DNA of 64,000 bases from Straminergon stramineum. Taxonomy: Eukaryota > Streptophyta > Bryopsida > Hypnales > Calliergonaceae. Position numbers and translations under genes: made by a program. Below are positions 8,462 through 60,601 of the stretch, one piece after another. The stretch is taken from NCBI GenBank assembly GCA_963920665.1, contig OY987265.1:44149001-44213000 (forward strand), written 5' to 3'. The notes beneath the pieces are model-generated. The model saw only the letters and a list, made by a program, of their open reading frames with translations. It did no database searches and was not told the DNA's origin. Position 1 is the stretch's first letter. Every line of letters begins with the position of its first letter.

Positions 8462-11160
8462 TCACCCAACAATAACGACTTTCCCCATCCTCACTCCTTT
8501 TAATGCATCTGCAATCCCGATCAACCTTGTTTTTGAGACCAGCTCAAATCTCCTTCTTGTGCCATCTTCCCTACATTCTTTCAGGATCCACAGTCGCGAG
8601 ATGTTTCGATACTCTTCGTTGGCTAACACCTCCGGTATGCACAAATTCAAAGAGTCCAGATCAGACTGGTCGCAGACGGGTGAAAACACCACAAATTTGT
8701 GATCACCCACGCTTGAAGGGTGAAGGATTTGTACCGCAAAGTTGGTGTTTGTATAGGCGGCAGCACGAGTGCTTTTGTCGTTTGTTGCAGCGAGACCAGC
8801 GAAGACAAGTTTGTCGACAAAGTAGAGAAGGATCGAGTACCATCTGTAGGTCTTGGGTGAAAGCATGCTGCTAGTGAGAGTACTATTTGACAAATGACGT
8901 TCATCGTGGAGTGATGGTTCTTCATCACCCCCAATGTTGACTTGTTCATTACCTCTCCAAGTCTCATGTACTTCAAGCTCCAAAGCTTCAGCTAATTCCA
9001 AAGAAAGCGCCCAATTGACTGCGTCCTTGTAATCCTGCTTCAATCCATCCTCCATACGGAAATCTAGGCTAGGGAGGTTTGCGGACAAATTCGTCTCAAT
9101 TTGAATAATCCAGTCTGCACCAAGCTGCAAAGCACATGCAAGTGCTTGAATATAATACACTCTTATGCCCTTGTAGCTCTCGTCATCATCTTCGTGATCC
9201 AGCAAAAAATCGGACTCTTCATCCGGAAATAGACTCTTGCACATTGCTCTATGATCAATTAGTAACCTTGAAAGGGATAGGTATCTGTACTCCGCAACAG
9301 AAACATCAGCACTAGTGCATATGAATTGCATAACAAGTTGTAAACCTTGATTTGTCATGGCCAGATCTGTGCCAATCTTCGGCAAACTTGCTTTCCCCTT
9401 TACTCGCGTGGTATCTATTAAAACCGGCAACCTGAGCCATTGGTTTTCTAGTTTTCTGTTAGGCGAATGGATAGGACCACCAGTTGTTGCTAATGCTGTT
9501 GGATCACCAGAGGCAAGGGCCACCATGGTAGCCAAGCGGAGGCAATCTTCCTCCATCAAAGACATTGAGCCTAAATAGTAAAGGCCTGAGTTCATCACAT
9601 TTAGAAGAATAGAGATCTTGTCCGAAATCATGAAGGCACCCAACGAAAAGATCTCAGTGAACATATGCATGTAGCTGCCATCATTATTGGGTAGCTCGGT
9701 CTCAAATACTTCAGCCATACTGAGGGCTTGGAGACGCAATATAAAGCGATTTAAGCGCATGAGATCTTCGTTTCTTATGTTTGACGTGGCGAAGTTTGTG
9801 CGTTTTGTAGTCAACAAACGCTGGAACTCGACTTCCACAAACCTATCTACCATTGTCTCCAAGAACAGTGCATCTAGCCTCATTATAGTCACCACTTCAT
9901 TCCCGACTTCACCACTAACCGGAACCAAAAATGTATGATTCCTGCTAACAAGAAACTCGTGTAAGCACCACGCCCTCCGGAACCATCTTGCGTGAACAAT
10001 CTTCCCAAACGCACTCGCAATTCTATCTTTATCCTGTTGAGATTGGTTGCAAGATCTATACGGATCATTGTCAACAAGCACGTCCATCTCTTCTTTAGTT
10101 ATAGCGATGTCTTCTAGAGCCACAACAACTTTGCGGGCACTTTTGTACAGAAGATCCATTGCACCAATTGCGAAATCTTTCTCATGTCTAGAAGTCTGCA
10201 CTATGCAGAGTTGGTCACACCAAAAACCTTCGGATGGGTTGAGGCGCTGTGAGAGGAACGCGGACCACATTGCAGGAGTCAAGGGTCGGGCATCAATCTG
10301 AATATCATTTGAAGGACAACCGAGACTAGTATGAGGAGTCCACTCAGAATTGTGCCATGTATAGCTTAGAATGATAAAGGTGGAACCTACTTGGGGCAGA
10401 GCACGTTGCATAGAGCTCTCATAAAGAAGCCTCATGACAAAATCCTCGAGTGCAAGGTTTTTGAGGCCGAATTGTGAGGCTGCCCAGGGATCTATTCGGG
10501 AAAGTTCTTCCATTAGTTTTTCACCACAATCTGAAGTACTCTTGGATAGGGGAAGAAAAGAATGTTTGGCATCGTTGCTAACCTCGCAAGTCCGAAGGGA
10601 TTCATAAAGGACAATTGATGGGATGTGGTAGACCTCACGAAAAAGCCTAATATTGGGCACGAGTATCCCAGGCATCAACTCGCTAAAAGACATCCTAATG
10701 AGACAGGAAGATCAAATTAGGGTTCCATGCTTCATGTGCATTAGGAAATTGAAAGATCACTAACGCTACCAAGAATCATCAAGGTCTTCAAGATAATTGG
10801 ACTTACCTGGAGTAGATGACGGTCACAATGCCCCCGCCAATGAACTCAAGGATCTGACAGTAACTCCAAACTGAAAGATCTACATTAACTTGGTATAGAA
10901 GATTCCCCGCCACACTTGAGATGAGGCAGATGCGAAACCAGAAGAAGGCAACCCTAAGTTGCGACAGATGGAGATAGACTCTCGCAAGTCTCGCATAGAA
11001 TAGCGTGGAAAAATCCTGCACAATATTCACCAGTTAAAACGAAACATGTCGAAGCATAATACAAGTGCCTAGATGTGAGATGCCATTTGCAGATAAACCA
11101 AAAATCTAGTTCCTTACGCTAAACCTGTACATATAACCCTCGTACCAGCTTTGAGATCAC
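8462..11160 (-). CDS. HET-domain protein with N-terminal membrane-type exons
   Basis: The main exon (10694-8462) encodes 743 uninterrupted residues from an ATG at 10693. It carries the HET signature in order: LSYTW (residues 109-113), FWCDQLCI (157-164) and WFRRAWCLHEF (237-247). In fungi HET domains trigger self/non-self incompatibility death; in plants the role is unknown. The exon is preceded by a good acceptor (tctcattag). A 209 nt exon (11015-10807, acceptor gtgcag, donor gtaagt) joins it in frame and adds a hydrophobic, helix-like segment. A 36 nt exon (11160-11125) precedes that, also in phase. The long C-terminal part (about residues 250-743) matches nothing I recognise. Just upstream, ATG GCG TCC CAA at 11199 is followed directly by TAG and TGA, so the original start may be lost. 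Translation could begin at 10693 or at an unseen upstream exon. There is no frameshift in the main exon. Family assignment is strong; the 5' end is uncertain. Confidence 0.87.
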
Positions 11161-11199: not shown

Positions 11200-13335
11200 C
11201 TTCTCTCTCAACTGGCTCTCTCACAGAACTTGCTAGCTTGTTCTTTGTGCAGTGCATAAGCTACGCAGGTCCAAGAAAACCACGATCAAGCATGAATGAA
11301 ATTTGCCATAGCCAGATTTGTCTGTCTCCACTAGTTCAACTAAACTAACTACTTATTATTCTACTCAATTGATACCACCCTCTAGTAATCTCAAACACAA
11401 CTTGGACAATTCTAAGTAAACAACAAACGTTTATATTTAATTTGCAGTAATTAGGGTTTAGGTTTAGTTCATCTTGAAGCACCTTCCAGAGAGAATGTAA
11501 TGAAGATGAGGAACAAGCTTCCTCGGACTGAAAAGGCCTTGCAAGATGTACTCGAGACAATCAGCAGCAATGAAAATCATACAAGCACGTTTGGCTTCAA
11601 AGCATGGCAATTCTAGGCTTTAGGTGCTGCACTTGCTCTTTTAGTTTTTCCAGAACTACTCTGCCTTACTTGAGGAGTGACACCATTCCAGAATTCGACA
11701 TCCAAGCTTGGAAACCCCATCAGGAAGCCAGAGCCGGCCAGAAGGGAACATAAGTCCCCTAAAGTTCCCAATCCGTCCCCACCAGGTCCCCAAGCCGTTC
11801 ACACTCAAGTGCAGGAGGGCGGGAGCCAGGCCTTGAAGCCTTGCCTCGCACTACTGCGAACCCCGTCGTTTTTCATTCCGCAAATTCCGACCTGGGTCGC
11901 TTCTCACTCCTGTGGTCTGAAGTCACGTAATGTCTGGACAGCGGTGGGGTTGCTCTGCTTATCGGTGGACGTGCAACCAACGAGAGATGGGCTATGGACT
12001 TGAGGGAAAAGCGCTCGCCTCCTTACCTTCTTTGCGGTTTACCATACGGTTGAAATGAGGTGTGGTTTTGTAGACGGGATGAAGGAATGTGGCTTCAGAG
12101 TTGGTTCGAAATCGAGGGGTTGTTTCGGCCTTCTCATGTTCACATTTTCATGCCCTATGACGTGACTGTGCTTTTGATAGGGTTCAGTTTCACACTGCAA
12201 CAAGTAAACAGGAGATGCACAAGCAGCGAGATATTCATTTGTAACTCCACCAGGAAGTTCAATTGACCTCATTGGATTCACATCAACATTACTTTTCAAA
12301 TGTGCGGCGGAGTGAACGTGTGCCTGTAGATTGGTTAAATCAATTTCCGTGACCACAACTAACTGGATTCTATTGGAAATTCACTTTTGAACTAATGAGT
12401 GACGTTCAACGAAAATATCCATTTAGCTAATAGTAACTCCATCTACACCATAGAACCTAGTACCACAACATACCATGGCAAATAAAGATGAGGAACCTCC
12501 TCTACAAGAAGGCACATGCAACTTGCTGGCCAATGGAAGAAAACTCCAAGCGATGACTCTATCATGTTCAATTTGAGGTACTACTATCAAACAAATTTGG
12601 AAAAAACAAATGCAGGCTAACAGAAGTGAAATTCAAAAACTTCACAGTCAGTACATTCGATGGAGAAGAAGACATTTGCACTATTTCCTCGAAGTAGTTT
12701 CTATATCACTAGACTCATCTTGGATGCTATCCAACTGTAGATACAACGGCAACGACATGACAACCTTATGTGAACCTCCTAAGTGAATTGAAGAGAAGCT
12801 TCAGGCTAATGTCAACCACTATTCAAAGGTTCATCCTCACTATCACGCAGGAATGACTATCTTCTGACACGGTGCATGCCAAACTCTCTGTTTCTTTGAC
12901 GAAGCACACTCTCCATGCATGTTCAAACTATTGTGCACCTGAAACTCATTCAAAACATTTCCATAACAATGACATCGGCAAAATAAATAAGACTTATGCA
13001 ATGACTATAAGAATGCAAAGTAAACGCAAATTCCGAAATGACAAACTTCTTAAAATCACGTCATTCACTTCAGAGTACGGATATAAAAATTTCACTACAC
13101 ATATACCTAAAAATTTCTCACTATTGCATAGGCTTCTTCAAGTTTTTGGCTCCACTTCCTTGGCCCAGTACAAGGGCCTTCTTCCAACTGTCTATAGAAA
13201 GATTGAACACCTTCCGTAAAGGCTACTACTTCACTTTCTTTAATTTTGATTTCACTATTTCATTGACGCCTCTCACTTTTCTACTAATATCTACCCCTTT
13301 TGCTTGCATTCCGTTCAACTTTCTCATTCGTTGAA
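11200..13335. other. Gap between the HET and Tet-like genes
   Basis: This stretch holds the probable promoter and 5' leader of the HET gene and the 3' flank of the Tet-like gene. Two overlapping GC-richer frames, 11677-12003 (plus, 108 codons, Pro-rich) and 12039-12356 (minus, 105 codons), have no recognised domains. The frames at 12872-13334 are AT-rich and look incidental. Confidence 0.35.
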
Positions 13336-15266
13336 CTAAACTATCACTCGTAGGGACATTCCTATTCTTGTATGATTTGGATATGTTATAGAAGGTATGG
13401 TACTGTGGAAATCAGTTTTACCCCGCCAAATAATTTCAACAAGACCATCACAAGCATTGAAATCAACATACACTTTATAACTACCTAATACGAATTGACC
13501 CCCTTCACTTTTAAAACCCTCTTTTTGGCTTGCTAAGGAACCGCTAATGGAACATGTTGGTGCCCACATACCATAGGTGTAAGAATTAAAATCCCTATCT
13601 TGATGCATTGAATTACTAAAATCTTTCATAGTGTAAGTTAAGTTACTACAAAACGCACCGTCTTCTAAGCGCAAGATGTTGAATTCTGTTTCAGTTAAAG
13701 TTGGAACTTCAGCACTTGCTACTTCCTGTCTTGTATGCCGAAAAAGGGATGGTGCCAAGCTACAGAATTTCTTGCCAAAAATGGTAGAAATATCCGATAA
13801 CATTTCCTGCTCAGACTTCCAATTTTCAAGGCTAGAAGCCAAATCTTGCATGCGCCTATGAGGAACATACCGACCAAGAGTTAACCCCCGGTCCAAACCT
13901 GCAATCCACAAAACAAAAACTGTTCCATGAGAAGGTATTTTAAAAATAAAGAAAGAATGAAAACAACTTATGTACTTAGTATTACAAAAACATGTACATT
14001 ATACACCAAACATGAAACATACCCGCTCTCCAACCGACCGCATACATATCCCCCGTTTTCTGCGCTCGATTACACGCCACGAGACTAACGCCTTTTAAAA
14101 TGCTCATGAGCGTGGATGTCACTTTTTGATTTTCTTTGTATTCATCAACTAACATTCTCTCAAAAGGCATACATTTGACAATTAGCACAATTTCTTTTGT
14201 AGTTTTGTCTTGAATGGCCACCGTTCCGTGATGGATGTGGAAGTAATCATCGGGAATGCAATTTAGATACAGTCCGTCAAGATCCTCAAAGTTTCGTTCT
14301 TTTTGAACAACAAAAGCACCTACATTCCATGATTTAAATTATTAGAACAAAAATAAACCAAAAAGACTTGATCAATACCTTTATGAAACATTATCAAGAA
14401 TAATAATTTAAAAGGGAATTATATATTTTCATTGATTTAAAAAAATTTATTTGAAAAAACAAACATACTCATAAAACACATAACAAAAGGAACAACATGT
14501 GTCCACATATGCCTATTATGCGGAAGAAATCAAAGACAAACAAAATAACAAAGACCAAATATATGACATATGTATCATCTAATACCATAACATGTGAGAA
14601 AAGTTTAAATTAAAATAAACATCACTGACGTCATGTCTGTTTCTGAAGAATTACCTTTGACTTCTGCTCGCACAACTTCAAATTCTCCAATCCTTTTTCC
14701 CGTCAAACAAGCTTTGCTATAATCTTTTTGTTTCTTCCTTTTCTTTAAAAGTGCCAAGTTTTCAAATCTGCAGAAACAAATCAATCCATTAAAATACCAT
14801 TATATTTCTGAATTGACATTATATTATTTTGAAACTCAAGCGTAAAAGCTCCTCACTTCTCTCCCTCTATAATTGTATAGAATGACAATGAAATTGGATT
14901 GAGAAACATCAAAAGCCAATTGCTTCTTTGTTACTCAAATCCCTCTAAATTTGGAAAATATGAATGAAGATGTATAAAGGCCAATTACCTTGTTACATTC
15001 CTCAATTCATTTTATGATTAAACAGAAATGATGAAGTTGGCTTCAAGGCCAATTGCCTTTTGCCTTTTTATCGACTTGCATCTAATACCATAGAGCGGGA
15101 GAGCATAAAGGCCAATTGCCTAATTGCTCCCCTCACCCGATGTAGAAAATCTGAGAAGATAAACATGTGACATTTCATCTATTTATAATCAATACCAAAC
15201 TAAATAAGGAAAATAAGTGGTGATGTATACCAATTCAACTTACCCAATGCTTCTTCGACCGGCCAT
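13336..15266 (-). CDS. Tet-like 2OG-Fe(II) oxygenase (PF20515-type, TET/JBP-related)
   Basis: Four exons join in perfect phase into 331 codons: 15266-15244, 14767-14655, 14319-14023 and 13898-13336, all with GT..AG borders. The start MAGRRSIG comes from an ATG directly followed by a consensus gtaagt donor. The middle holds an 'RAQKTGDMYAVGWRAG' segment typical of the fungal Tet-like oxygenases (abundant in rust and other basidiomycetes). The C-terminal double-stranded beta helix has the iron triad H243-x-D245 (in MHQDRDFNSYTYGMWAP) and H309 (in DFHSTIP), plus the 2OG-binding Arg at R322 (TRIGMSLRV). A basic KKRKKQKD stretch near residue 16 could be a nuclear signal. Relatives TET and JBP oxidise 5-methylcytosine or thymine in DNA; the substrate here is inferred only. 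No stop or frameshift breaks it, unlike most genes nearby. I am fairly sure of the family and unsure of the function. Confidence 0.8.
14911..15122. repeat. Four ~65 bp degenerate repeats in intron 1 of the Tet-like gene
   Basis: The phrase 'aaaggccaattgcct' or a close variant occurs at about 14912, 14976, 15045 and 15107, so the spacing is 63-68 bp. All four lie in the first intron (15243-14768). It looks like a small decayed tandem repeat. Confidence 0.5.
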
Positions 15267-15689
15267 GTGCAGAATTAGGTCCAAGATACTCTTGCTACAC
15301 AAACACAATCAATTTCTCAGAATCTTAGATAATTGGATTTTGCATCAATGCTACTCTAGCCTAAACCATTCATTACATACTCTAGGAAGCTACATACCTC
15401 TAATACTCCTAATTACCTTCATTACATTCTTGCATTGTCAGTAAAAGTCCTCTTCAATACAACTAAAGCATGACAACAAAATTCGGTACTTCACATTTCT
15501 GGTATGCCAACAAATCAAGCTTACCAATATGATCTTCATCATTTCCCCCAAATGTTTAATGCAGGTTTGGAAGTTCCTTCAATCACTTTAGAAATGAGGT
15601 TCCCTCACTTCACTTCCATTTAAAATTGGTCGTCCATATATTCAAATTAAAGGTAGAAGGAACTCATTTAAAATTGGAAAAAAAATTTC

Positions 15690-17826
<2,137 letters not shown>

Positions 17827-27316: not shown

Positions 27317-30300
27317 TTAAACATAATTATCCGCTTCAATGACAAGCATGCCCCATTTGCGTAGTACCTGCTTCACGTGAGCGGGAAGTATAAATGGCTT
27401 AGTGACTGGTGATTGCCTGGTGTTGTACTTGACAGACCAGAAACCATGATTATCTTGGCGCATTGTTGGACTTCCTTCCTGGTTTGGCCGTATCCACAAG
27501 CATTTCATGACGATGAAATTCAGATGTCCGTAAGTCACCTTGATAATATCCTTCAATATGTCCACGTAATTAAGTGTCACCTCAACGGGATGTCTATTGG
27601 ACCGTGACGACCTACACAATTGGGTGATGATGGCTGCCACACCTACATCAAAAGAGACACTATTGGATCCATCTTCGGCATCAACACGAAAGTGATTTCC
27701 ATAAGCCCACATAGAGAGGTAACGTCGTACAGTAGGATATGGTAGCCGAGAAAGAGTCAACAAGTCATGGGATGGTGACTCTCCATTCTTCTCCATGTTT
27801 AGAACTCGATCCTCCAACCAATAGGCAAATCGGAAGAAAGGGCGATTCCATCGTCGTTCATATCTCGCCTTGTCTTCAAGGTACTCGCTACAAGAAAGGG
27901 GAGTAACACTTATCTCAGTGTACTTGCAATCTCATCACTTACACAAAATCAATACTACGAATTAATTGATTAATTGATTATTAATTTGTCTAACAAATAT
28001 AAGCATTAGCTTCTAGGAAGACTGCATACACGCCTATAGAATGGCTCGGTAATAACATTGTGATGGATGATGTGCTCATGTACTTCTATGAGCTTGGACT
28101 CGCACCACTCATGTTCGGTGCCGCAACCTTCCAATACTTCAGCACAATCCCTTTCATCTTCCTCCATGTTCCAAATTACTCTAGCCGCTCCAGGGTAGAG
28201 GTTGAAATACTCCGTGACAAACCCAATTGCCTCTTCGTACATGTATCCCATTGCAATGGACCCTTCCGGCCTTGCCCTATTTCTGACATGTGTCTTGAGA
28301 TGTCCTGGATACCTCTCAACACCATACATCCACCTAGCATGGACGAGTTTGCACTAGTATAACTCTCTTGGTATATGAAGGACAAGGTGGGGCATTACAT
28401 TCCAAAATGCTGGAGGTAAGTAGATCTCAAGCAGGGCACATGTTTCGGCAATATAATTAAGCAACCCTAGCAACTCTTGGCATTTAATTACCTTCTCGCA
28501 AATTTTTTTGAAACAATGTCCCAACCTTATAATGGCTACTCTAGGTTCCTTTGGGAGGGAGTCGCGAATGGCTATGGGTAGCACCTCCTGTATGAGGACA
28601 TGCCAATCGTGAGTCTTCATGAACTTCATTTTCATCTTATCCATGTTTACAAGCTTTGCAAAATTGCCACAATGCCCGGAAGGGGTTCGAACACGTTGTA
28701 TTGTGTCTAATACTTTTTGCTTTTCTTGGGGCCTAAGAACATAAGGGGCATGCGGCATAGTGTAGCCTTCACCATTTGCTTGCGCTTGAAGATGCAACTC
28801 AGGCATGACGTTCACATCCTCCATGTCTTTGCAAATGGCAATGGTATCCTCATCACCAAGCAAGAATCCCATTGTCGTGTTGGCAACATTCTTCTCAATG
28901 TGCATCACATCCAAAGTGTGGCACCTTGGCAACTCTTGTACAATAAGAATCGTTATAATAGGACTTTGATGAAACTACTTGATAATGGATCAAGGTGATT
29001 GCAAGAAACACTTGTCCTATTTTGCGTCACATAGTGTGTGTTGAATAGTTTTTTGCCTATAACTTTTGTGTTTTGGCTCCAAATGATTCAAGATTTGTAG
29101 GGAAGGTACTCATGACTATCATATACCTTCCCTAATTTATTCATAATTTCCAAAAATAATTTACTATCCAAAAATAGACCCCGATTCAATGTCGCAATTG
29201 CCAATTTGGAAGGTTTTACTACTATTTAGAACCCAAAAAACCATATTTTGAGCTGAAATTTGGTGTTTCTTGCAATCACTCATCAATGGAACCTCAAGCT
29301 ACGAAGGTATTGTATACATGCGGGATATCTATAATGAAGTGGGGTTGGAAATTAGTTACCATATCTTCCAATACAGCAGCCTATATAAGGCCGATACACG
29401 TTTAATACCAGATAGGCGCACCGGGTCATTTTGTAACAGAATACCTTCTTCATGGAGCCATCTTTCTCGTGTAGTACCCAAGTCCAGTGCACGTTCCCCA
29501 GACATAGGCTCAAGTGCGTTGCCATGCTCTTCGCCTTGGAAATGCTCTCCGTCATATCGAAGGTGATGTTCATAAAGGAGGTATTTGCGAGCACAACCAC
29601 AAAATACATTCTTGTGGAGGACCTTTGACCTCCTTGATCTGAATCTGTCTACACACACTGGGCACCCATGGAAACCCTTTGTGGTGCAACCTGCTACCAT
29701 ACCATATGTCGGGAAATCTCCAATTGTCCAAATGAGCATGGCATGCAAGATGAAGTGTGATGATTGCTTGTATTGTGCAATATCCATGGAATACACACCA
29801 TAGGTCCAAAGGTCTAGTAGTTCATCAACAAGCAGGTTCAAAAACTTGTCAAAGTGCTTTGAGATAACAGACCTAGGACCCGGGATTAGTACCGAAAGCA
29901 TAATGAAGTAGTTTTTGATTGTCAACCAAGGAGCAATGTTGTACAACAATATCAATATTGGCCATATAGAATATGTACTCCTCTTGTCAAAGTTGGGGTT
30001 GAATCCATTAGTGACTAGTGCTAAACGAGGGTTCCTATCATCATATACAAACTTTGTCGCGTATCGTTCATTTATCCACTTCCACTGTTCACCGTGACTG
30101 ACGTGCTCCATGATGTCATTGTCACTTTGTTATACTGCCCACCACGTCATTGAGGCCGCTTGTTGTGGGCTCCTGAAAATTCTCTTGAACCTTGGGGTAA
30201 GTGGAAAAACACGGCAAACCTTGAATGGCACCATTGACTTTCCTATACGCCGTTTTCTTGGAGCACGACAATGAGGGCAAACTTCGGCTCCTTTCAGGAG

Positions 30301-31423
30301 TCCTCGGAACAACGTACAATTGTTGGGACAGACATCATAGCTTTTGTATGAGTGACCAAGTCTTTTCAGATATTTGATAGCCTCATCGTAAGAGCTTGGA
30401 AGAGTGTTTGGTTGGGGTAGAAGGGTTGTACTTAGTGTGCGTAAAAGCTCATCCGTGTATGTTTCCGTACACCGATTCAACTTTGCCCCATTGAGTAGTA
30501 GATATGTTGCGTCCATACAAGAATGTTGAGCCCCGGCAAACAATGGGGTTGTAGCGGCTTCTACTAATGTTGTGATAGTTGCGTCAGTGTCGTCGTCCGA
30601 GTCACCCTAGTCTAAATCGTCGTCATCATCGTTGTTGTTTGAACTATTGGATGAAGTTGAAGCGGTCGGAGATGGAGCATTTGATTGCGTACTTCCGAGT
30701 TCAACGTCTGTGGTAGTTGCAAACATTACGGGGTCATTCGCCGAGTCTTCCTAATTGGTAGTAGGATCTAGGAGGATTGATTGAGAAGCATCCACGGATG
30801 GTGTTATAGAGAAAGAGTTGTCAGGGATTCCAATTTCCTCTACTTCGACTACGTCGATATGTGGATGTCTTGTTTCTCTTTCACTGGCAGCTTCTTCACG
30901 AATCCTATCTACTAGGTTGTACACATCAATGACCATGTGGGTCATATCCATACCAACATCTAGGTGCTGAGGCTGTAGGCGGTTTGGAATAGCGGCAGAT
31001 TGAGCGCTGTAATACCACGTCACATGTTTGTCCCATTCATCATCGAAATCATCCGCTTCGAATCCCTGTCATAAAGAGCATAGCTTACTAGAAGGTATAA
31101 TGGCATTAATATAAACTCGGAAAAAAAAAATTGAACTTGTCACTTAAGAAAAGCAATATGAGTAGGGAAACAAGTGTGTAGCTTGCTTCTAGACTAAAGA
31201 CCTCCGATCTCCCAAAATAAAAAGGGTGTCGCTTGTTCCTCTTCACACATCTCTCGTACGATTGTAGGGTGAGGTTGGATTCTCGAATGTGAACCCTGCA
31301 AGGACACGGCATTTTGTTCCACCCTTTTGTACGAGCATATGCAAGCTCTCTATTGAGGAGCTTTGTTTCATGTGCCCTAATATGGTACTCTTCTAGAGCA
31401 CGGCGCCTGATGCCATCCTCCAT
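27317..31423 (-). pseudogene. CACTA TNP2-type transposase relic
   Basis: Reading leftwards, the order matches plant En/Spm transposases. A CPC-containing, transposase-associated-like segment lies at 31423-31106, followed by an acidic linker. Then comes a segment with CPNNCTLFRG and CPHC (30543-30130). The TNP2 core (30111-29356) has LLDLWTYGVYSMD, IGDFPTYGM and GFHGCPVC. An intron (donor at 29354) follows, then LDVMHIEKNV at about 28915 and the DUF4218 region (THDWHVLIQEVLPIAIRD, YLPPAFWNVMPHLVLHIPRE). Next are VERYPGHLKTHVRNRARPEGSIA and, at 27817-27317, a DUF4216-like region (YVDILKDIIKV..DNHGFWSVKYN..PFILPAHVKQV). In-frame TAG codons at 30751, 30607 and 28354 break it, each readable as a former CAG. 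A second Cys-rich minus frame at 32695-32216 may be an additional N-terminal exon. Confidence 0.9.
28995..29279. mobile_element. MITE-like insert in the transposase intron
   Basis: A perfect 17 bp inverted repeat, GTGATTGCAAGAAACAC, lies at 28995-29011 and is inverted at 29263-29279. It bounds 285 bp with no coding capacity. It sits wholly inside the intron between YWKIW and LPRCHTLDV of the TNP2 relic. The flanks share 'atcaa' but no exact duplication is visible. The left end abuts a small palindrome (cttgat..atcaag, 28978-28994). Confidence 0.6.
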
Positions 31424-32215
31424 CTCAATTCTATATAAAGAAAGGGTAAGTGCATTTTACAAGGACAAATAAAAGAAAGTATGAGCAAGAAGTAAAAGTA
31501 AAAGGAACATGTGAAAAAGTCAACAATGGGAGCAATTGCAACTTTGATGTTGTCCTTGGAGATGCATCTACAACCAAGACGTTGCAACTAGTAATGCACA
31601 CCATCAAAGACTCATACAATTGTTCGTTGTATACCATTGTTGCTAACAACAAATGGGGAGCTTAAATCCTTAACATTGAACATGTAGAAGTTGTATGTGA
31701 CAAGGTACCTTGCAACAATTAGTACCCATTAATGAAGCAATGCCTATGTATATATTGTAGCAATGAACTTCACATGAATGATTGTAAATGCATTTACAAA
31801 GAGGAAAGCAAGTTTTATTAAATGCACATAGAAGCGGGCTTGTAAGAAAGAATTTTACAATGTGAGCCTCATTGTGAACATCACGTCACAAAGAGAACCC
31901 CCTACCTCTATTGTTAAGACCATATAGAAATGCAATTGACCCCAACCAATTCAGAGATCACCTACAATAGTATAGAGTTAGCCGCATTATTCATGGAAAA
32001 AGTCGATCCAAATATTTCCCTAGTATTCGACAACGGATAGCAGTCATCACAGTACTTTCATCTTATCCGCATTGTTTCTTTTTGGGTTAATCTACTTTCT
32101 ATTCCTCATGAGACGATGTTGTATCTTTGGTTTCCCCAGCATTCACAATTTCAGAAGAAAATGGAAGATCTCCACGTATTACTTCCTCCAAAGAACCTTC
32201 CAAATTTTCATTAGG

Positions 32216-39049: not shown

Positions 39050-39560
39050 GTCAATAGTGATGTGGAAAGCTTTGACCATGTCACCATAGGCGACTACGGG
39101 TGGGGCAACCGCGGGTCCTAGAATGAGGGCGACTGCGGGTTCAATCTGGAGCAACTGCGGGTCCAATCCAGGGTGACTACAAGTCGAAGGGGGGGGGGGG
39201 GGGGGCGAGTGCGAGTGGGGCGCGTGCGGGTAAGATGGGGCGACCTCGGGTCCTAGAATGAAGGCGACTGCGGGTTCAATCCGGGGCGACTACAAGTCGA
39301 GGGGGGGGGGGGGGGGGCGAGTGCGAGTGGGGCGCGTGCGGGTAAGATGGGGCGACCTCGGGTCCTAGAATGAAGGCGACTGCGGGTTCAATCCGGGGCG
39401 ACTACAAGTCGAGGGGGGGGGGCGAGTGCAGGTCTAGGGGGGGCGAGTGCGGGTCTAAGAGGGGCAAATGCGGGTAGAAGGGGGCGACTACGGGTCTAGG
39501 GGGGTGAGTGCGGGTCTAGGGGGGGCAAATGCGGGTAGAAGAGGGCTTAGGGGGGCTACC
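39050..39560. repeat. G-rich minisatellite with long poly-G runs
   Basis: Units of 'gcgactgcgggt' and 'gcgagtgcgggt' type are repeated. A 112 bp block is duplicated almost exactly (about 39189-39300 and 39301-39412). Each copy begins with a run of 17 Gs (39189-39205, 39301-39317), and a third run of 10 Gs lies near 39413. It has strong G-quadruplex potential. No gene. Confidence 0.8.
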
Positions 39561-39849
39561 ACAGGTCATTTCTTGGCCGACCGTGGCTGATGGGGCGACT
39601 GTAGGTCTCAGACTCAAGAAGTCTTCTAGTTCATGACGATGGAGGCGGCTGCGTATGGGGCGACCGCGGGTCAGGGGCGCCAAAAAACATGACTTTGAGT
39701 TTCCCCCCTTACAAAATGGAGGGAAGGCGTTCAAACTTTTCAAGTACCACTGCCCCCTTTTCTGAGGAATAACTCCAGAAAATCCTAAAACTAAGGCATT
39801 CAATACTAAGTGATCAAAAGTTAATTAAGTAATAAAGAAAGTAAATTGG

Positions 39850-40560
39850 TTTAGGAAGTGGAGATTTGGAAAAGCCCTTTTTCCTAACATTTCATTTCTC
39901 CTTCATCCATCCTTATGGTCATGTCAAATTTAACGTAACCATTTCCTATTTTAATTTTTGGAGGGAGTACATTGAGAGGAGACCTTCCCTTTTGGGGGAA
40001 ATCATGTACAAAAAAAATACTAACATCGTGGGATGCACAAAGAAGAAATCTTCTTATCTACATAAGAAGTGGTTTAAGAAATGGAGACTTAGGGAAGCTC
40101 TTCTTCTTGACATTTTATTTTTCCTTCGTGGTCATGTCAAATTCAACGTGACCATTTCCTATTTTAATTTTTGGAGGGAGTACATTGAGAGGAGACCTTC
40201 CCTTTTGGGGGAAACCATGTACAAAAAAAATACTAACACCGTGGGATGCATGAAGAAGAAATCTTTTTATCTACATAAGAAGTGGTTTTAAGAAATGGAG
40301 ACTCGGAGAAGCTCTTCTAATTGACATTTTTTATTTTTCCTCATGCTCATGTAAAATTCAACATGACCATTTCATATTTTAATTTTTGGAGGGAGTATAT
40401 TGAGAGGAGACCTTCCCTTTTGGGGGAAACCATGTACAAAAAAAATACTAACATTGTAGGATGCATGAAGAAGAAATCTTTTTATCTACATAAGAAGTGG
40501 TTTACGAAATGGAGACTTGGGGAAGCCCTTCTCCTCATCATTTCATTTTCCATCCTCCAA
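39850..40560 (+). repeat. Three tandem copies of a ~214 bp unit
   Basis: The 'ttttggagggagtacattgag' segment recurs at 39956, 40169 and 40384, spaced 213 and 215 bp. The whole unit is conserved ('accttcccttttgggggaaa', 'atctacataagaagtggttt'). A partial fourth copy begins at about 40500. The units stay open on the plus strand for up to 141 codons, but the 213 and 215 bp steps and stops between copies argue against a protein. Confidence 0.8.
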
Positions 40561-40834
40561 CATAGGAATTTCAATATAGTCCTCCCCTTGATACATCAAG
40601 GGGATTTAAAACACATTTGAAGGGGTGAATGAATATTCAATTTATTGAAGATTAAAAAGTTAGGAAATGACACTTTGAATGGTTTTTATCTTACAAGTAC
40701 AAGGTTTAGGAGTTCAAACATTTTTACGACATATAATGAAAAGCAACTCACATGTGTGTGTCATTTTATCCATCCTAAAAAATAGAAGTACATTACTTTT
40801 GGACTCGCATACATGGAGAAGGTCCATGGTTTTT

Positions 40835-40867
40835 CTATAGGGTTTAGGGTATAGGTTTAGGGTTTGG
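40835..40867 (+). repeat. Short plant-telomere-like tract inside the repeat complex
   Basis: 'atagggtttagggtatagg' followed by 'tttagggtttgg' contains three to four TTTAGGG-like units. It lies between the 214 bp repeats and the main G-rich array. Confidence 0.4.
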
Positions 40868-41084
40868 AAAACCCTCTTCAATTTCTCTAATTAGTCATAC
40901 TAAAATTTCTGTATTTATAGACTAATTCTGTAGTATTAACTAACTATGAGCATTGAAGGACATGTCAATTATAGTGTATGGAAGATGCAATTAAGCTTGA
41001 CTTCATTAGAGTTGGAGATGGCTCACATCTTGTGGTATGTTGGTTCCTGCACTGACGTGACTTTAAGATAGAGGTGAATATAGG

Positions 41085-42560
41085 TCTTGGGCGAGTTTAG
41101 GTCTTGGGCGACCGCGGGTGGAGGCGAATTCAAGTCTTGTTGTTGTTGAGCCCAATTTGGTGGAATGGGGGGCGACCTCAGGTCTTAGGCGACCACGGGT
41201 GAGGGCGAGTTCAAGTCTTGTTGTTGTTGAGCCCAATTTGGTGGAATGGGGGGCGACCTCAGGTTTTGGGCGACCGCGGGTGAAGGCGAGTTCGAGTCTT
41301 ATTGTTGTTGAGCCCAATTTGGTGGATTGGGGGGCGACTTCGGGTGGGGGGCGACCACGGGTGAGGGCGAGTTCGAGTCTTATTGTTGTTGAGCCCAATT
41401 TGGTGGATTGGGGGCGACTTCGGGTGGGGGGTGACTTTGGGTCTTGGGCGACCGCGGGTGAGGGCGAGTTCGAGTCTTGTTGTTGTTGAGCCCAATTTGG
41501 TGAATTGGGGGGCGACTTTGGGTGGGGGGCGACCTCGGGTCTCGGGCGACCGCGGGTGAGGGCGAGTTCGAGTCTTGTTGTTGTTGAGCCCAATTTGGTG
41601 GATTGGGGGGCGACTTCGGGTGGGGGGTGACCTCGGGTCTCGGGCGACCGCGGGTGAGGGCGAGTTCGAGTCTTGTTGTTGTTGAGCCCAATTTGGTGGA
41701 ATGGGGGGCGACTTCGGGTGGGGGGCGACCACGGGTGAGGGCGAGTTCGAGTCTTATTGTTGTTGAGCCCAATTTGGTGGATTGGGGGCGACTTCGGGTG
41801 GGGGGTGACTTTGGGTCTTGGGCGACCGCGGGTGAGGGCGAGTTCGAGTCTTGTTGTTGTTGAGCCCAATTTGGTGAATTGGGGGGCGACTTTGGGTGGG
41901 GGGCGACCTCGGGTCTCGGGCGACCGCGGGTGAGGGCGAGTTCGAGTCTTGTTGTTGTTGAGCCCAATTTGGTGGATTGGGGGGCGACTTCGGGTGGGGG
42001 GTGACCTCGGGTCTCGGGCGACCGCGGGTGAGGGCGAGTTCGAGTCTTGTTGTTGTTGAGCCCAATTTGGTGGAATGGGGGGCGACTTCGGGTGGGGGGC
42101 GACCTCGGGTCTCGGGCGACCGCGGGTGAGGGCGAGTTCGAGTCTTGTTGTTGTTGAGCCCAATTTGGTGAATTGGGGGGCGACTTCGGGTGGGGGGCGA
42201 CCTCGGGTCATGGGCGACCGCGGGTGAGGGCGAGTTCGAGTCTTGTTGTTGTTGAGCCCAATTTGGTGGAATGGGGGGCGACTTCGGGTGGGGGGCGACC
42301 TCGGGTCATGGGCGACCGCGGGTGAGGGCGAGTTCGAGTCTTGTTGTTGTTGAGCCCAATTTGGTGAATGGGGGGGCGACTTCGGGTGGGGGGCGACTGC
42401 GGGTGAGGACGAGTTCAAGTCTTATTGTTTTTGAGCCCAATTTGGTGGATTGGGGGGCGACTTCGGGTGGGGGGCGACCTCGGGTCTTGGGCGAGTTCAG
42501 GTCTTGGGTGACCACGGGTGAGGGCGAGTTCAAGTCTTATTGTTCTTGAGCCCAATTTGG
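41085..42560. repeat. Compound minisatellite, 16 units of 81, 97/98 or 115 bp
   Basis: The anchor 'gagcccaatttgg' occurs 16 times between 41148 and 42548. Successive spacings are 81, 81, 81, 97, 98, 98, 81, 97, 98, 98, 98, 98, 98, 81 and 115. The differences are about 17 bp, so each unit is a constant ~64 bp core ('gagttcgagtcttgttgttg' + anchor) plus one, two or three copies of a ~17 bp G-rich module ('gcgacctcgggt..'). The minus strand is open for 451 codons. Since 98 is not a multiple of three, the frame rotates from unit to unit and the openness reflects lack of stops rather than a protein. Confidence 0.9.
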
Positions 42561-42589
42561 TTGAACCCGCGGTTTATAAGGGGCGCACG

Positions 42590-43200
42590 CAGATCTTGGG
42601 GAGTGACCACGGGTTTGGTAGGGCGACTGCGGGTCCACGGGCAATTATTTGTCTTGGATAAGGTGACTGTGGGTCTAGGGGCGACTGCGGGTCCTGGACA
42701 GGGTGACTGCGGGTCCTAGGGCGACTGTAGGTCCTGGACAGGGTGACTGCGGGTCCTAGGGCGACTGCAGGTCCTGGACAGGGTGACTGCGGGTCCTAGG
42801 GCGACTGCAGGTCCTGGACAGGGCGACTGTGGGTCTAGGGGCGACTGCGGGTCCTGGACAGGGTGACTGCGGGTCCTAGGGCGACTGTAGGTCCTGGACA
42901 GGGCGACTGCGGGTCTTGGGGCGACTGCAAGTCTTGGACAGGGTGACTGCAGGTTCTGGACAAGGCGACTACGGGTCCTGAGGCGACTGCAGGTCTTGGA
43001 CAGGGCGACTGCGGGTCCAAAGGCGCCAGCAGGTCCTCTAGAGGGCGACTGCAGGTCTTGGAGAGGGCGACTGCGGGTTCTGGGCAGGGCGACTGCAGAT
43101 CCTCTAGAGGGCGACTGTAAGTCTTTTGAGGCGTGTGCGGGTCCCCTGCGAAGCAACTGTGGGTCTTTGGGGGCGCCTGTGGGTATTTGTGAGGCATTAC
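42590..43200. repeat. 20 bp minisatellite in 40 bp dimers
   Basis: 'gggtgactgcgggtcctagg' alternates with 'gcgactgcaggtcctggaca', giving a 40 bp period (for example 42700, 42740, 42780). Towards 43200 it breaks up. The core 'gcgactgcgggt' is shared with the arrays at 39.1 and 41.1 kb, so all are one family. Minus-strand frames of 168 and 120 codons here are by-products of the repeat. Confidence 0.85.
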
Positions 43201-53043: not shown

Positions 53044-53504
53044 GTACTCTACATTCAAACAGCTATAAGTGTAGGTTTCGTAGTCCAATGTGGGCATATC
53101 TAAGGAAATTCAGATAGTTAGCAGAAATCTCTGGCTGAGTTGCTCTTTAGCAATCTTAGGGTTTGTGTGTGCATGGAAGCTTCAGAGGAAAGACTTTAGT
53201 TCATTGTGGATGTCATTCAATTCCATATTACTTCAACTTTATAACCTTGATTTGATTCATGTTGGGGAATTTTTCAGCTGTTTTCGACTCCCCAGGCTTG
53301 TCTCATTGAAGTGTATCGTTCAAACTGGTCCTCTTTTCGACGCTCTCACTGTTGGTTTTATTTGCTTTATGTCATTGGTTAGATGTTTGAACAACACAAA
53401 TTCAACAATCGCTTGTTTATGTGTAGCTGATATGTTTTAAAGCTCAGGCTGCTTGTACTTCGTCGCTTTGTTTGACATGGACGTTGTGTTTTGTGGCGAT
53501 TTAG

Positions 53505-56500
53505 GAATTTGTTGGATCACGCGGCTCTTCTCTTGGAAAGAAAAGGTGGAAGAGAACTCTTAGATGGAAGAAATCAAGATCGCGATTTTCGTGATATTAA
53601 TGAATTGGACAGCAAGGATGATGAACTTGATTTAGATTCCGAAACTAGTTACTCAGATAGTGAAGATGGAGATGAGAAAAATGATAAGATTGAAATACCT
53701 GTGGAAGATGTTGAACTTGCTGCCACACCGGAAATTGCTAAAAAGCATGAAGGTCGTGGACTTAACACATCTTTTGCAAAGAAACTAAGGCTAGTTGAAA
53801 CTTTGGACGACTACTTTTCACCAGCAACTTTGCCATCCGATTGGAAGGAAGCTGTTGAAACTATCACACATGGTTCCAGTGTGCCTATAATTGCCATCTG
53901 TGGTGCAAAGAATGTCGGAAAGTCTACATTTGCTCGGTTCCTAGTGAACTCACTTCTCAACAAGTCTTAGATTTTACAGTCATTACACAAAAATCTAGTT
54001 ATTATTTTTTGAACTTGTTTTATTAATATGTGAGTTCCAGAATCCAGACATTATGACAAGGGTATATCTTTAGTGATATGAGTCATTATGTTACTATTTT
54101 TGTACTCGTCCAGGTATAAGGAAGTTGCATATCTGGATACAGACGTTAGACAACCAAAATTCACGGCTCCTGGGTGTCTCTCACTACACGTTCTTGACAA
54201 CCCAATTGTTGGTAAGATCTGAGTGCCCCCCCTGGAGGATTTTGCGACATTTTTCCTTGTATGTATTTATGGATTATGCACGTGAGCATTTGATGATTTG
54301 TTTCATTTTAATTTTTTTCTGGTTTTCTCATATTTTAACATGCAGTAGTTTGTGTAGTAGTAAATGACTGAGTGCCGAAGGACGTTTTTGTAAATCATGT
54401 CAGATGCTAACTCTGCCCTTGCATTTTGTTTACCAGGCCCGCCAACAATGCATCTTCGTTTACCGGAGAGGTAAAAAAATTCTCTTTAACTTGTCATGTC
54501 TACTTCTAAGTTTTATATTGTCCATGAATTTGCAACGTTGTATGTTGTGACTTTTAAATCCTCGACCCTCGTCTCTATTAAACTGATGTCACATGGCTTG
54601 TAGCCCTGAAATGCATCATCGATTTTCCTTCTTTACTTCACCTTGAATGTACGTCCGAAATTGTTTATTCGATCGTTACTTTGCAAAAGTACAACTGGTT
54701 TGATAGGCCAAAACTGTATTTGGCATTGTGTTATGCACACTTTTGCAGGTGCTTCTTTTATGGAGATGTTACTCCTAAAAGTAACCCGTTGATGTATGGT
54801 GAACATGTAGCTGGCCTTGTCAACTATTTTCATGAAATGTATTTTCTCAATTCCACATCGACTATCCCACTAGTCATCAATACGCATGGATGGGTGAAAG
54901 GTAATAGCACCTCAAATTCAACCTCTTTACACCTAATTTTGGTCAATTATTAGACACGAGGTAGGCCAAAATGCCTTGAGAGTCTCTTTTTTGTTGTACA
55001 TAGAAACTGTTGCTTATCAGTCTTTTGTCATTTGTAATAGGTATTGATTATGATGTTGTCGTCGACATCTTGAATTCTACCTCTCCAACACATGTTGTGC
55101 AAGTGTTAGCCAACTCCGAGAAGAAGAATCTGCCACGTAACAAGTTTTGGGACGAAAGGAGTACTACCGAAACCATATACGTAGAGAGTACTGTGGAGAA
55201 ACTACCCATGTAAGCAACTCTCAGGGACTTGCAATTTAGGGATGTCTCTCTTGATGGTTATTTTTTATCTTCTGTGTACCTTGTGTTCTCTGAGAAGTGT
55301 TCAAATTATTGAGCAGGCATCATCGAAGTGCAAGATCAGCGCATCTTCTACGCGCAGCCCAATTTCTTGCGTATTTCCAACAGTGTTTTGGAGAGAATTT
55401 AGCAGCTTTATCTTACCGGGAAGCCAAGTTCTTTTCCCAAACTATGATGTCACTTGTGAGGGACATCCCATACAAAGTCCCATTTTTAGCCCTTAAAATC
55501 AAGCATCTTCATTTTGAGGTTTGTGCTGAACTTGCCCTTTGTATTCTTCTATGCTGTTCTCCACTTGTTTAACCCTTAAAGGATATTGCAGCCCGAGGAG
55601 CATTTTGAAAGTCAAACCTTAATTTCCACGTAGTTCTTTATTTTTAAATGCTTTTAAGCTTGAATGAGAAAATGTAGCTCCAAAAATCTACTTTTTATTC
55701 CATTTTAATTTTTTCAAATTTGTCATAATTGTAATTTTTGTGTTACTTTGAAGTTACAATCTTTGAAAGCTATAAACACACTACTTTTGAACCTTTTCTA
55801 TCGTATTTCTCTTGGTGTGAACTCAAGGAGTACATCAATTACACCATAATGTACTATTATCTTCAATTCTCTTAAAATTTTCATACTATTTTAAGCATTG
55901 TTGCAATTGCTATGATTTTTTCAAAAGAATTTACTTTAAAAAATTATATAAAATTCGCTTTAATGTTTTGGATGATGAAAAATTAAAAATTAATTCTAGA
56001 TATATATTACTGCATGAGAAAAATATCAATTTAGAAAACTAAAGAAGTTTGACCCTACGGGAACTCAAGTTGATTTGTCCTTTATAAGAATTCTAGCCTG
56101 AATATTCATATTAAATTAGGTAACTACCCCCAAAAGGAGGATGTATTTGCATCAAGGACTTCGTTTCTTACTTGATGTTTGTACATATAATTTCAAGTAC
56201 CACCATCAGAGAGTCTTGGATGTGTCAATGCATCTATTGTGGGTTTGGGGGTGACCTTCTATTGATAAGGACACTCGAGACAACGATGACCTAAGTAGGT
56301 CGTCCGTGCCACTCTGCTTGGGCCTCGGTAAGATCCTTCGATGTGAAGCAACAATTCTGTCCAAGCAAATTGTTTTCATCCATTTTAGCATTGATCGCAG
56401 GATTTTTTTGGCAATAAGAGTAAACTATGGTAGGTTTTTTGTAAAGCGCGTTCCCGTGGTCAATGTGTGAAATATGTTGTTTATTTGCAGGAATTGTGAA

Positions 56501-56860
56501 AGCAGTTGACATGAGAAGAGGCGTGTTCTATATTAGCACTCCTGTGCCTCAAGAACAGCTCCAACATGTTGATATCTTGCCTCAAGGGCGTGTTGAGATT
56601 CCAGTTCCACTCTTGATGGTAAGAGACTTTCATGCAAATCATAGACCATGCATACTACCATGAGAAGTTTCAAATTTAGAGCATTTCACGTATTCTAAAA
56701 CTGCAGTCTACAGTCAAACTTATTGATGATCTTGGGACTTGATCTGCAGGCCAGAGGTTTCATGTGTCCATATTTGAAGGAAAAATCACAAATTGTGGAA
56801 GGAGTGGATGCGGGCGCAATGAAGAGTACTATGAAGCCGAGTGCAAAGAAAGTGCAATGA
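53505..56860 (+). CDS. NOL9: NOL9/GRC3-type polynucleotide 5'-hydroxyl kinase
   Basis: Exons: 53505-53963, 54114-54211, 54437-54470, 54749-54900, 55041-55209, 55317-55518, about 56198-56327, 56491-56618 and 56750-56860. Borders are GT..AG and phases fit except at the seventh exon. The protein has an acidic N-terminus, a Walker A motif (CGAKNVGKSTFARF), YLDTDVRQPKFTAPG, CFFYGDVTPKSNP, PLVINTHGWVKG, THVVQV, GIVKAVDMRRG and FYISTPVPQEQL. That is the full order of plant NOL9/GRC3, the nucleolar RNA kinase acting in ITS2 and rRNA processing. The family's DVGQ is DVRQ here. The seventh exon holds the conserved CVNASIVGLGV, but in a frame that fits neither its upstream junction nor its downstream end (LCLGLG|IVKAVD). 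A 1-nt change on each side would be needed. The first exon is not found. The gene is nearly intact and could be a recent pseudogene or carry assembly errors. Confidence 0.8.
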
Positions 56861-59800
56861 AGCTTGCCTGTACTCATTTTCTATTTGAAGAAACCAAGTG
56901 CCCGCTATGTGTAGTGCACCATATTTGCTAGATCACTTCAAATCTTGAGTCATGGATTCCATAGGGAAATCAATGGAGTTTCATATTTTTGGTTGTTTAT
57001 ATTCAGATCCTAAATCAATGCTCTATCTACCAGAGCTTCTTTTCTGGAGCAAATTTTTTTATTGGGGTGATGATCGATTGTGCACTAAAGTTTTCTTGCT
57101 TGTGGATTCCGTCATCTGTTTGGATGCAAATGTTAATGAGTGGAGTAGCTAATTACCTCCTGTGTTTCCCAAGAGAAATTCTAGGTTTCGATTGTATGCT
57201 GGTTCAAGAATTGGTGGTGATTACACCAAGTCCGAAAGGGGGTTTAAACAAGATGATTGCCCTGTAGGTGGCGTTGCTCATTTTGATACTATTTCGGGTA
57301 CCATGGTCTCAGCTCGTTTGAACCTATGCCAAAACTTCTATTTGACCTTGATTCTGGAGATTAGAGTCAAATAGATTTCCTATTTGTTTTGAGAACTGAA
57401 CTATTTCTCTCTACTCTAAGTAGAAGGCTCTTGAGACATTAGTGCTCTTGAGCTACCCGTTTATGGGTCAGTACTTTGGTCAAAGCGAAAAGCTAATCTT
57501 ATGAGACTCTGAAAATTGCTATAAAATACGTTCTCAATGATTGTTTTTCGTCTGTTCTAAAAAATTCTCTCTAATTGTTTTGTTTGAAATGAGGATTGTA
57601 TTCCAATTTCTAATTGTTCTTGAGCAAGAGATAGTATAGTAGACTTGCCAATCATCGCATAGACAAAATTCAAATCCTTCTCCACGTAAATGTAGGGACT
57701 TTCATGTTTTGAAATTTGGCGTGATTACTAAAGGTCATGTTAAGATTCACCTTCAAAAAATAAAAAGCAAAAATATTTCTTCCATCAAATTTTATTGCAA
57801 TCTAAAGGTGATGAAGCTAAAATCTAGTTAAAAATTCCTTGCAACCCTTCATTGCACAATGTGTTGTCATTGGGTGGTGATACAAAATTTTGTTCACATG
57901 ACAATTGAATTGGTAGTTGCATCATGTGGTTAGTGTACGGTAAATGACAACAATTGTTGTGTAGTGAGTCTTGTGGAAGTCAACCCCATAAAGGTCCATG
58001 CATCCAAAAAATGGATGTACCTTGATCAACCTTGATTGTAACTTTCAGTAGAACCATTTTTGGTATTTGGTTTAAACTAATAAAATGAAGCTTGACAAGA
58101 TATCTTTTTGTTTCATTTGGAAATTTTGAAAAAATCCAAGAATTGAAAGAGTTATTGCAATTGCAAGCTTCATATGTTAGAATCCAAATAACATGATTTG
58201 TGGTGATTCTTATTTTTCTTCTTTGATAATGGATTTTAAATTTAAATTACAAAATTATGTTTTTCATTCTAACCTTCATTTATGGTAAAAACTCCAAATT
58301 ATTCTAATATAAAATAATTCATATAATTTTATTCCACCTCTGCTTTTTTAAAATCACAATAATTTGATTTTATCATCCAATTTTTCTGAAAAAAACAACA
58401 TATATAGAAAATACATTTTTCCACGAGCAAAGTCAAAATTTTACATATAAATTAAATAAAAAGATAAATGCGATTTGATAGCTAAATTTGACTTCAAGGT
58501 CTTTGTTGTGGCTATTTTGGATGTAAAGAATAAAATAACCTATTGAGAAATTTTTACACTAATTTTCATTACTATTTTGGTAAACCTACCTATAACATGT
58601 AGAATGAGTGTTTACCTTGTTACAAATTAGCAAAAAAAATAAGAGTTTTTTCCATGCAAAGACAAATGTGAGAAAGGAAGAGAGCAATTGAAATTTTATT
58701 TTTGACAAAGTATGAATTTCTTATGGTCCAAAACACTATCTCTAGACTATCAATTTGTTTTGAATTATAACCATACGAGTTCAACTTAGGCATGCTAGAG
58801 ATCACTTAGAAAAAGAAAACATAACAATATCACTTATGGATTGACAGATTATATGTTTGATCATGAAGGTGTTAAAATTATGAAAGTGATTTGAAGTCTT
58901 TCAATCCTCTTTTCACATGTCAAATCTAAAAAATTCGTCATCAAATAAATACGAGATTAAAGGTCATCATGTACATAATCTCAATAAATTTAAGGCTTCT
59001 CAAAATCTACTCTATAATTTATAAATGAATTTCTAATGTGTGTTTTTTTCCAAGATATATTGTAGTTGAGTCTCATTTCCAAGAGCCCTCAACAATAAAA
59101 AAATCAAGATTTGCAATGGACACCCTTGCACATAATCATAATGTGCAAAGGTCCAATGCAAAGTCACCAATCCAAAACCCAAATGAACTTTACCACATTA
59201 TAGAAAGAAAAAAGAGGAAAAGATTCTTCATTAGAAAAAGACTTTTCATGCAAACAAGGGAAGGTCAAATTTATTAGTATACATAACAATGCTTGAAAAG
59301 GTATGATAATATTGATGATTTTGCTAATTTGCGAGGTTTGAGAAGGATATCGGTGACCCCATGAATAAAGAGAGACAAATACCAATTGCATTAGAGAATC
59401 ACTTTTAGAATTGCCCCATTATTAAGCCATTATCATCTTAGAACCTGGGAGCATTGTGAATGCTCTCAACTAGTAGTTTGCTATTGTCATGAGACTTTCA
59501 ATGCCAATGAATTCCTTACTTGTGGTACATCTCTAGAAATTCAATCACTTGTATGTGTATAAAGAAATTTGAAGTGAGGAAGGTAAGGCCCTAGGCCATG
59601 GAAAAAATACATTGAATAGTAGAATTAGATTGCCCCTCACTAATTTCTTAAAACATCATATTCATTAAAATGGGAGTTTTCCACTGAAATAAGAGTTTTA
59701 AAAGTACTATTTATTGTAAATGTGAAAAGAATCCATGGTCCCTTGACACTAGGAAGCACAACAATCACATGCAAAACCTCTGAAGAAATACATAATTTCA

Positions 59801-59968
59801 AAACATCATGCAATAAATGTGAATTGTAATCCAAGAAATGAAACATCATAAGCAGATAACTATGTATTATATTTATATTATCACCAAATCCTTGTACACA
59901 CATGGCCTATTGTAAGTAACATTCCTAGCAACTAAGCTCTTCATCTCTATCAAACGTGTTAGACATTG
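56861..59968. other. AT-rich intergenic DNA
   Basis: No gene, RNA or clear repeat is recognised. Short frames at 56,952-57,374 and 59,038-59,277 lack family resemblance. The 3' end of the NOL9-type transcript should lie in the first few hundred bases. Confidence 0.35.
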
Positions 59969-60260
59969 CAAGTAGATTGCTTGAGAAGACAAGGGCATGG
60001 TGATTGAAGAATGAAGCGGATGTTGAACTTTGACTGGATCTAGGCAAGGAAGTTGTAGAAAAACAAATATCCAGACGTCTCTGAGCATTCTCATAAATTG
60101 CAATCCTCACAGTCTTCTTTAGATTGCCATTTATGAAAATGCTTACAGCGACGCCTGTATATTTCTAATTCTACAACTTCCTTGCCTAGATCCAATCAAA
60201 GTTCAACATCCACTTCATTCTTCAATTACCATGCCCTCATCTCTCCAAGCAATCTACTTG
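59969..60260. repeat. Long near-perfect hairpin (foldback), arms ~137 nt, 16 nt loop
   Basis: The left arm 59969-60105 begins 'caagtagattgcttg' and the right arm 60122-60260 ends with 'caagcaatctacttg'. The arms pair along their full length. A ~57 bp run ('attgaagaatgaag..ggatgttgaactttga..tggatctaggcaagg') has only two interior mismatches, and overall pairing is estimated at about 87%. Most mismatches in the outer part are C/T or A/G. Such an inverted duplication could be a foldback transposon or a young small-RNA (MIRNA-like) locus. Neither arm matches a gene in this window that I can see. Confidence 0.75.
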
Positions 60261-60601
60261 CAAGACTGCTACAGCCGACGAAGATGAGGTCCCCTAATTT
60301 GAATACTTGGTTTGTGATAGATCAAGGATTGCATTCATTAGTGTAGATACCTTCAAAATAGTCTCTAAAATCATGTCCTTGAGTATGAGGATTGCAACAA
60401 TGTACAAAGTTCTTTCCTAGATTTAGGGTATTCGATCCCATGAAGGAAGTCATCCTCGTATCCTACATAGGGTTCCATGTAGTATCTATCATTGCTATCA
60501 TTTATTTACAAAAACAAAATTTGTCATATAGACAACTATCATGAGTGTGACTTGCTCTTGATTTCCTGAACTGCCTTCAAAATCTCTGGCCCTCAACTAT
60601 A
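60261..60601. other. Spacer, nothing recognised
   Basis: Short stretch between the hairpin and the 3' end of the broken frame at 60602. No feature is supported. Confidence 0.3.

Follow-up and report, generated by a model that had tools for sequence, protein, structure and literature searches.

The window analysed here is a 64-kb stretch of contig C3 of the Straminergon stramineum assembly (C3:44149001-44213000; genome of 326 Mb in 59 contigs). Its minus strand carries a gene model of four exons with GT/AG borders, whose 996 nt amount to 331 codons and a stop. Exon 1 (15244..15266) provides the ATG, seven codons and 2 nt; its ATG and GTAAGT donor are kept in a paralogue on contig C8, and these 23 nt had no protein homology of their own among the homologues found. 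The Lys-rich exon 2 (14655..14767) joins in exact phase, is conserved in the C8 paralogue, and shows a weak collinear match to residues 29-60 of the homologue P0001 (E 0.06). Exon 3 (14023..14319) matches P0011 (E 8.7e-10), with a dN/dS of 0.18 against C8, and exon 4 (13336..13898), which encodes the oxygenase core with H243, D245, H309, and R322, is 50-68% identical to P0001-P0008. The three introns, with GT/AG borders on the same strand, lie at 15243-14768, 14654-14320, and 14022-13899 and measure 124-476 nt each. When the spliced coding sequence was shuffled with its dinucleotides preserved, none of 2000 shuffles was open in frame, and the longest open run reached 172 codons. The splice between exons 3 and 4 is supported because P0011 reads across the junction in one unbroken frame, with 36% identity over window residues 74-329. 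Moreover, P0003 and P0007 open with residues that resemble intron sequence and pass into exon 4 at this same junction, suggesting that intron 3 is probably shared with these relatives. The four exons in exact phase and the 331 codons given in the preliminary description were thus recovered, and H243, D245, H309, and Arg322 are all present in the spliced protein, as it had stated.

A Pfam search of the spliced protein returned PF20515, "Tet-like 2OG-Fe(II) oxygenase", over residues 115-314 (E 2.8e-47, 161.9 bits, against a Pfam cut-off of 27 bits), which bears out the family assignment proposed earlier. PF20515 was the sole family at E<=1; PF12851, the profile of TET/JBP sensu stricto, was unmatched in a library copy that may lack it. 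Searches of 5.8 billion proteins gave 16 homologues (P0001-P0016), all of which except P0009 carry PF20515. The HxD...H iron triad and the 2OG-binding Arg of the window protein are aligned in P0001 and P0002, and several relatives have lost iron ligands (HxN in P0005 and P0006, DxD in P0008, YxD in P0011). The complete set of metal and 2OG ligands is likewise upheld, but the data do not establish a TET/JBP enzyme in the strict sense, PF20515 being the only Pfam family found at E<=1. PF20515 probably corresponds to the PU-type TET/JBP of rust fungi. The window protein agrees with this superfamily in its profile match and HxD...H...R layout, and departs from it in its plant host, in the three introns of the window copy, and in a C-terminal tail conserved among relatives. 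CcTET, NgTET1, mammalian TET2, and Chlamydomonas CMD1 are 2OG-Fe(II) oxygenases that act on 5mC, the chemistry proposed here for the window family; phmmer and profile searches of the PDB gave no sequence match to any of these four. Predicted structures were of poor quality (mean pLDDT 38 for P0001 and 46 for P0011), and searches with the P0011 model were uninformative on a TET-like double-stranded beta-helix.

The tail bears directly on whether this gene is intact. P0001, P0002, P0003, P0004, and P0006 continue for about 40 residues beyond the window stop, and tblastn with P0001-P0006, P0010, P0012, and P0013 located the corresponding stretch, about 40 codons and a stop, out of frame at 13226..13345 on the minus strand (P0003, 65% identity over 34 aa, E 1.2e-7; P0001, E 7.7e-5). 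P0013 gave collinear tblastn matches in both frames of the 3' part of the window gene. Alignment with the C8 paralogue (L045/L010) and with L029, a C6 fragment that is 93% identical to the window over 72 residues, traced the frame change to a 4-bp deletion that neither of these sequences has, immediately behind the final strand of the core (13345..13350, minus strand; its exact position is ambiguous by a few bases). The window gene is therefore not intact, since its stop at 13336 follows the frame change and the tail lies in the other frame; the word "intact" in the preliminary description was not borne out, a conserved tail having been cut off by a deletion absent from the closest paralogues. 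The tail lies outside the PF20515 profile and is a feature of the relatives found here. Among the 29 loci examined of at least 48, it is in frame at 23, in another frame at four (the window, L015, L023, and L034), and absent from two (L022 and L036). The indels of the other out-of-frame loci differ from the 4-bp deletion of the window.

These observations indicate that the window copy is probably in early decay. Whether the locus is already a pseudogene without present function, a reading compatible with the explanation favoured below, we judge at slightly better than an even chance: the frame is lost ahead of a conserved 40-residue tail, the gene adjoins a decayed GAPDH relic, and the C8 sister copy has two stops, but the splice sites and catalytic residues of the window copy are intact. 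The damage consists of a single small deletion past the last core strand, which leaves room for a shortened enzyme, and the catalytic core could still fold. That the deletion is an assembly error in an otherwise intact gene is improbable. In L029 the corresponding site is a short repeat of GAGT type, where errors can arise; however, a 4-bp loss is unlike the usual homopolymer error, and the window gene has no further frame break.

The decayed GAPDH gene lies in pieces at about 15671-17730 (minus strand), and a duplicate of its 3' end accompanies the TET-like gene copy on C8. In comparisons with the PDB, one of its pieces is closest to 3e6a/3e5r, which we take to be rice entries, and for the other they rank second. 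A second fungal-type gene, a 749-aa open frame with a HET (heterokaryon incompatibility) domain, lies at 8465-10711 (minus strand; PF06985, E 1.4e-15), some 2.6 kb away from the stop of the TET-like gene. Further along the window are CACTA remains at 27320-31456 (minus strand; Transposase_21, E 1.4e-50, with DUF4218 and a weak DUF4216), a NOL9/Grc3-like polynucleotide kinase gene that seems to be interrupted by introns, at 53476-57300 (plus strand), and an NIF (CTD phosphatase-like) domain at 61577-62221 (minus strand; E 1.5e-12). A HET domain has been recorded in P. patens (PMC11228847).

The genome is that of a green plant, probably a moss. It contains 15 SBP-box matches, including some on contig C3, compared with none in 14 control genomes. 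SBP-box genes are a green-plant family. Tet-like and HET-domain genes are typical of fungi and could point to fungal contamination of a plant assembly, but the window is located 44.1 Mb into a contig of 45.4 Mb with SBP-box matches, its gene has introns of 124-476 nt, the GAPDH pieces are nearest or second-nearest to the presumed rice entries, and the family loci are spread over many contigs. We consider contamination highly improbable. The preliminary description had called a Tet-like gene unexpected in a plant; the plant genome is upheld by the SBP-box matches on this same contig, but the gene is far from alone, and at least 48 family loci are found on 11 contigs. The description had also placed the gene in DNA marked by heavy cytosine methylation. 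The CpG observed/expected ratio is 0.31 in the introns of the window gene and 0.82 in its exons, a difference compatible with regional methylation, but the mean of 0.63 for the whole window is moderate.

The count of 48 loci is a lower bound, obtained by merging within 5 kb the 58 and 59 matches (some of them weak) that genome searches returned at E<=0.001. At the 29 loci examined, all four ligands are kept in 14, at least one is missing in 14, and one is too short to tell. Four of these loci (C3:12.53M, C10:12.61M, C6:12.53M, and C9:1.04M) combine all ligands with an in-frame tail and have no stop within exon 4. At C3:12.53M, exons 2 to 4 are open and exon 1 is unplaced; the reading of C10:12.61M covers exon 4 only, and C9:1.04M has a stop further upstream than exon 4. 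In a FastTree phylogeny of 39 rows, rooted at the midpoint only and with low support at several nodes, a clade of intronless copies (C6:12.53, C9:1.04, and C3:40.79) is separate from the window clade, whose inspected members (the window, C8, and C3:12.53M) have introns. Database proteins are intermixed with the genome copies in this tree, which suggests that the PF20515 family is probably older than Straminergon stramineum. The full-length intronless relative at C3:40.79M (L005/L042) has an Arg-to-Cys change at the 2OG-binding position and adjoins a 676-aa frame, presumably of Ty3 type, in which RNase H, integrase, and chromo domains were recognised.

Selection was assessed by the Nei-Gojobori method in eight pairs, six of which have a dN/dS below 0.3. 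Across exons 3 and 4 (278 codons), the window and C8 copies give a dN/dS of 0.19 at a dS of 0.53. The intronless copies L039 and L042 give 0.27, L040-L042 gives 0.26, and three pairs near saturation give 0.14 (window-L043), 0.16 (L043-L039), and 0.28 (window-L039). Constraint is weaker or absent in the two newest pairs, L043-L044 (0.41, on 18 changes) and the recent L039-L040 (1.0). The low ratios show that purifying selection formerly acted on exons 3 and 4.

The window and C8 copies lie in a common duplicated block (13097..15795, minus strand) that is 76.7% identical over 2740 nt of L045, takes in the introns, and reaches the end of the decayed GAPDH gene. A second piece of this block, at 11848..12336, is 83.4% identical over 505 nt. 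Copies on C3 and C10 have in common a 10.6-kb block that is 95.4% identical and sharply bounded; no clear terminal inverted repeats (TIRs) or target site duplication (TSD) were found at its ends.

A different arrangement was found on contig C6, where a unit of 14,739 bp (C6:12515116-12529854, comprising L061, L059, and L039) is bounded by identical 44-bp inverted ends, TATGGTGTACC, that give it the form TATGG...CCATA. Inside it is an intronless TET-like gene with a complete coding frame and all ligands (C6:12526509-12527351 region) and, about 7 kb from this gene, an open reading frame that matches PF24764 (rva_4, 'integrase core domain'; E 5.2e-25), which we take to be an IS3EU transposase. 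The reading of this transposase is broken by stops or unresolved introns, and no alpha-kinase was recognised by eye among the listed reading frames of the unit. Within the 44-bp ends lies about 0.5 kb of similar sequence (88-91%, with gaps), and the 6-bp flanks, GGGGTC and GTGGTT, are alike at four of six positions, which falls short of an exact duplication.

Relatives of this unit occur elsewhere in the genome. A copy on C9 is 95.6% identical to it over 12.5 kb, and its left end falls on the same word; no right end was found for it within the stretch examined. At C3:26.49M, transposase DNA (80%) and the TET-like gene (89%) have the order and orientation found on C6. From 83 bp upstream of the open frame, the right part of the C6 unit departs from the copies on C9, at C3:26.49M, and at C3:40.79M, whose mutual similarity continues past this point, and the right end of the unit looks like parts of its left end in inverted orientation. 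Together, this departure and this likeness suggest that the right end may derive from a rearrangement or from a second element. Wider flanks were available for 14 loci (L039-L052, with additions), most of them spanning only about 3-4 kb, and the transposase is present at three of these loci. The 64-kb window, by comparison, has no match to the transposase or to TIRs of the C6 type, so that mobility of the window copy in its own right is without support. The earlier suggestion that copies travel with transposons thus finds support among family members at other loci of the genome, but not for the window copy.

Two published systems resemble the C6 unit. One is that of the TET-carrying IS3EU elements of rust fungi, for which Kojima (2025; PMC12730594) reports TIRs longer than 30 bp, 6-bp TSDs, and ends of the form TAYGG..CCRTA. 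The C6 unit is like these elements, as described there, in its integrase-type transposase, inverted ends of more than 30 bp, TATGG...CCATA termini, and internal TET-like gene, and unlike them in its plant host, imperfect 6-bp flanks, and lack of a recognised alpha-kinase; the likeness is one of relatives of the window gene and does not extend to the window copy. The other system is GingerRoot of the clubmoss Selaginella lepidophylla, an IS3EU-related transposon with mostly TA..TA ends (PMC10045372). It matches the C6 unit as an IS3EU-type element in an early-diverging land plant, but the passages of PMC10045372 available to us mention no TET gene.

We favour, with moderate confidence, the reading that the window holds a decaying, dispersed, three-intron host copy of a multi-copy TET-like family that has spread partly by DNA transposons. 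From what is known of such enzymes, the protein would depend on Fe(II), O2, and 2-oxoglutarate and act on a DNA base, most probably 5-methylcytosine, whose oxidation would relieve methylation silencing on carrier elements. Spread of the family would have been partly on IS3EU/GingerRoot-like transposons and partly by segmental copying, the latter being the putative origin of the window copy. The three introns of this copy, its low dN/dS against C8 (0.19) and L043 (0.14), the lack of C6-type transposon ends in the window, the sharp-ended C3/C10 block without clear TIRs or TSD, and a transposase unseen at 11 of the 14 more widely flanked loci would also suit a plant host gene family unrelated to current transposons, expanded by segmental duplication and having a cellular role in modifying bases of DNA or RNA; on this reading, a single lineage was picked up by the C6 transposon or became part of it through rearrangement. 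However, the many loci over 11 contigs, often with stops or lost ligands, resemble the dynamics of mobile elements, and transposase and gene keep the same arrangement at three loci. We regard the host-gene reading as rather unlikely.

A wider proposal can be made by analogy with fungi, for which escape from silencing by TET cargo has been put forward. Some land plants may carry TET-bearing transposons of the IS3EU/GingerRoot type, whose cargo would oxidise 5mC deposited by the host and let them escape silencing; a host family that is large and in part intron-bearing would have been seeded from them. We advance this tentatively and rate its chances as somewhat short of even. If true, a plant would possess an enzyme that generates oxidised methylcytosine, a source of which, according to the portions of the literature consulted, none is known in plants; TET-carrying transposons would then range beyond fungi, and the idea of transposon-borne anti-silencing enzymes would gain a plant counterpart. 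At least 48 PF20515 loci, some with complete cores and one with a transposase between inverted repeats, provide genes to test. The gene family is real and surprising; the window copy is a damaged member of it, and better material lies elsewhere in the genome.

A further weak match to the C-terminal part of the family (41% over 61 residues, E 5.7e-4) lies at G000:C1:22552523-22552705, within an open frame of 1363 codons. The window also contains GC-rich minisatellites at 39101-43123, with GGGCGACTGCGGGTC-like words spaced 17 to about 215 bp apart and a strong GC skew, and, at 59966-60263, an inverted repeat pair of 118 nt that is 88% complementary, its arms 62 nt apart.
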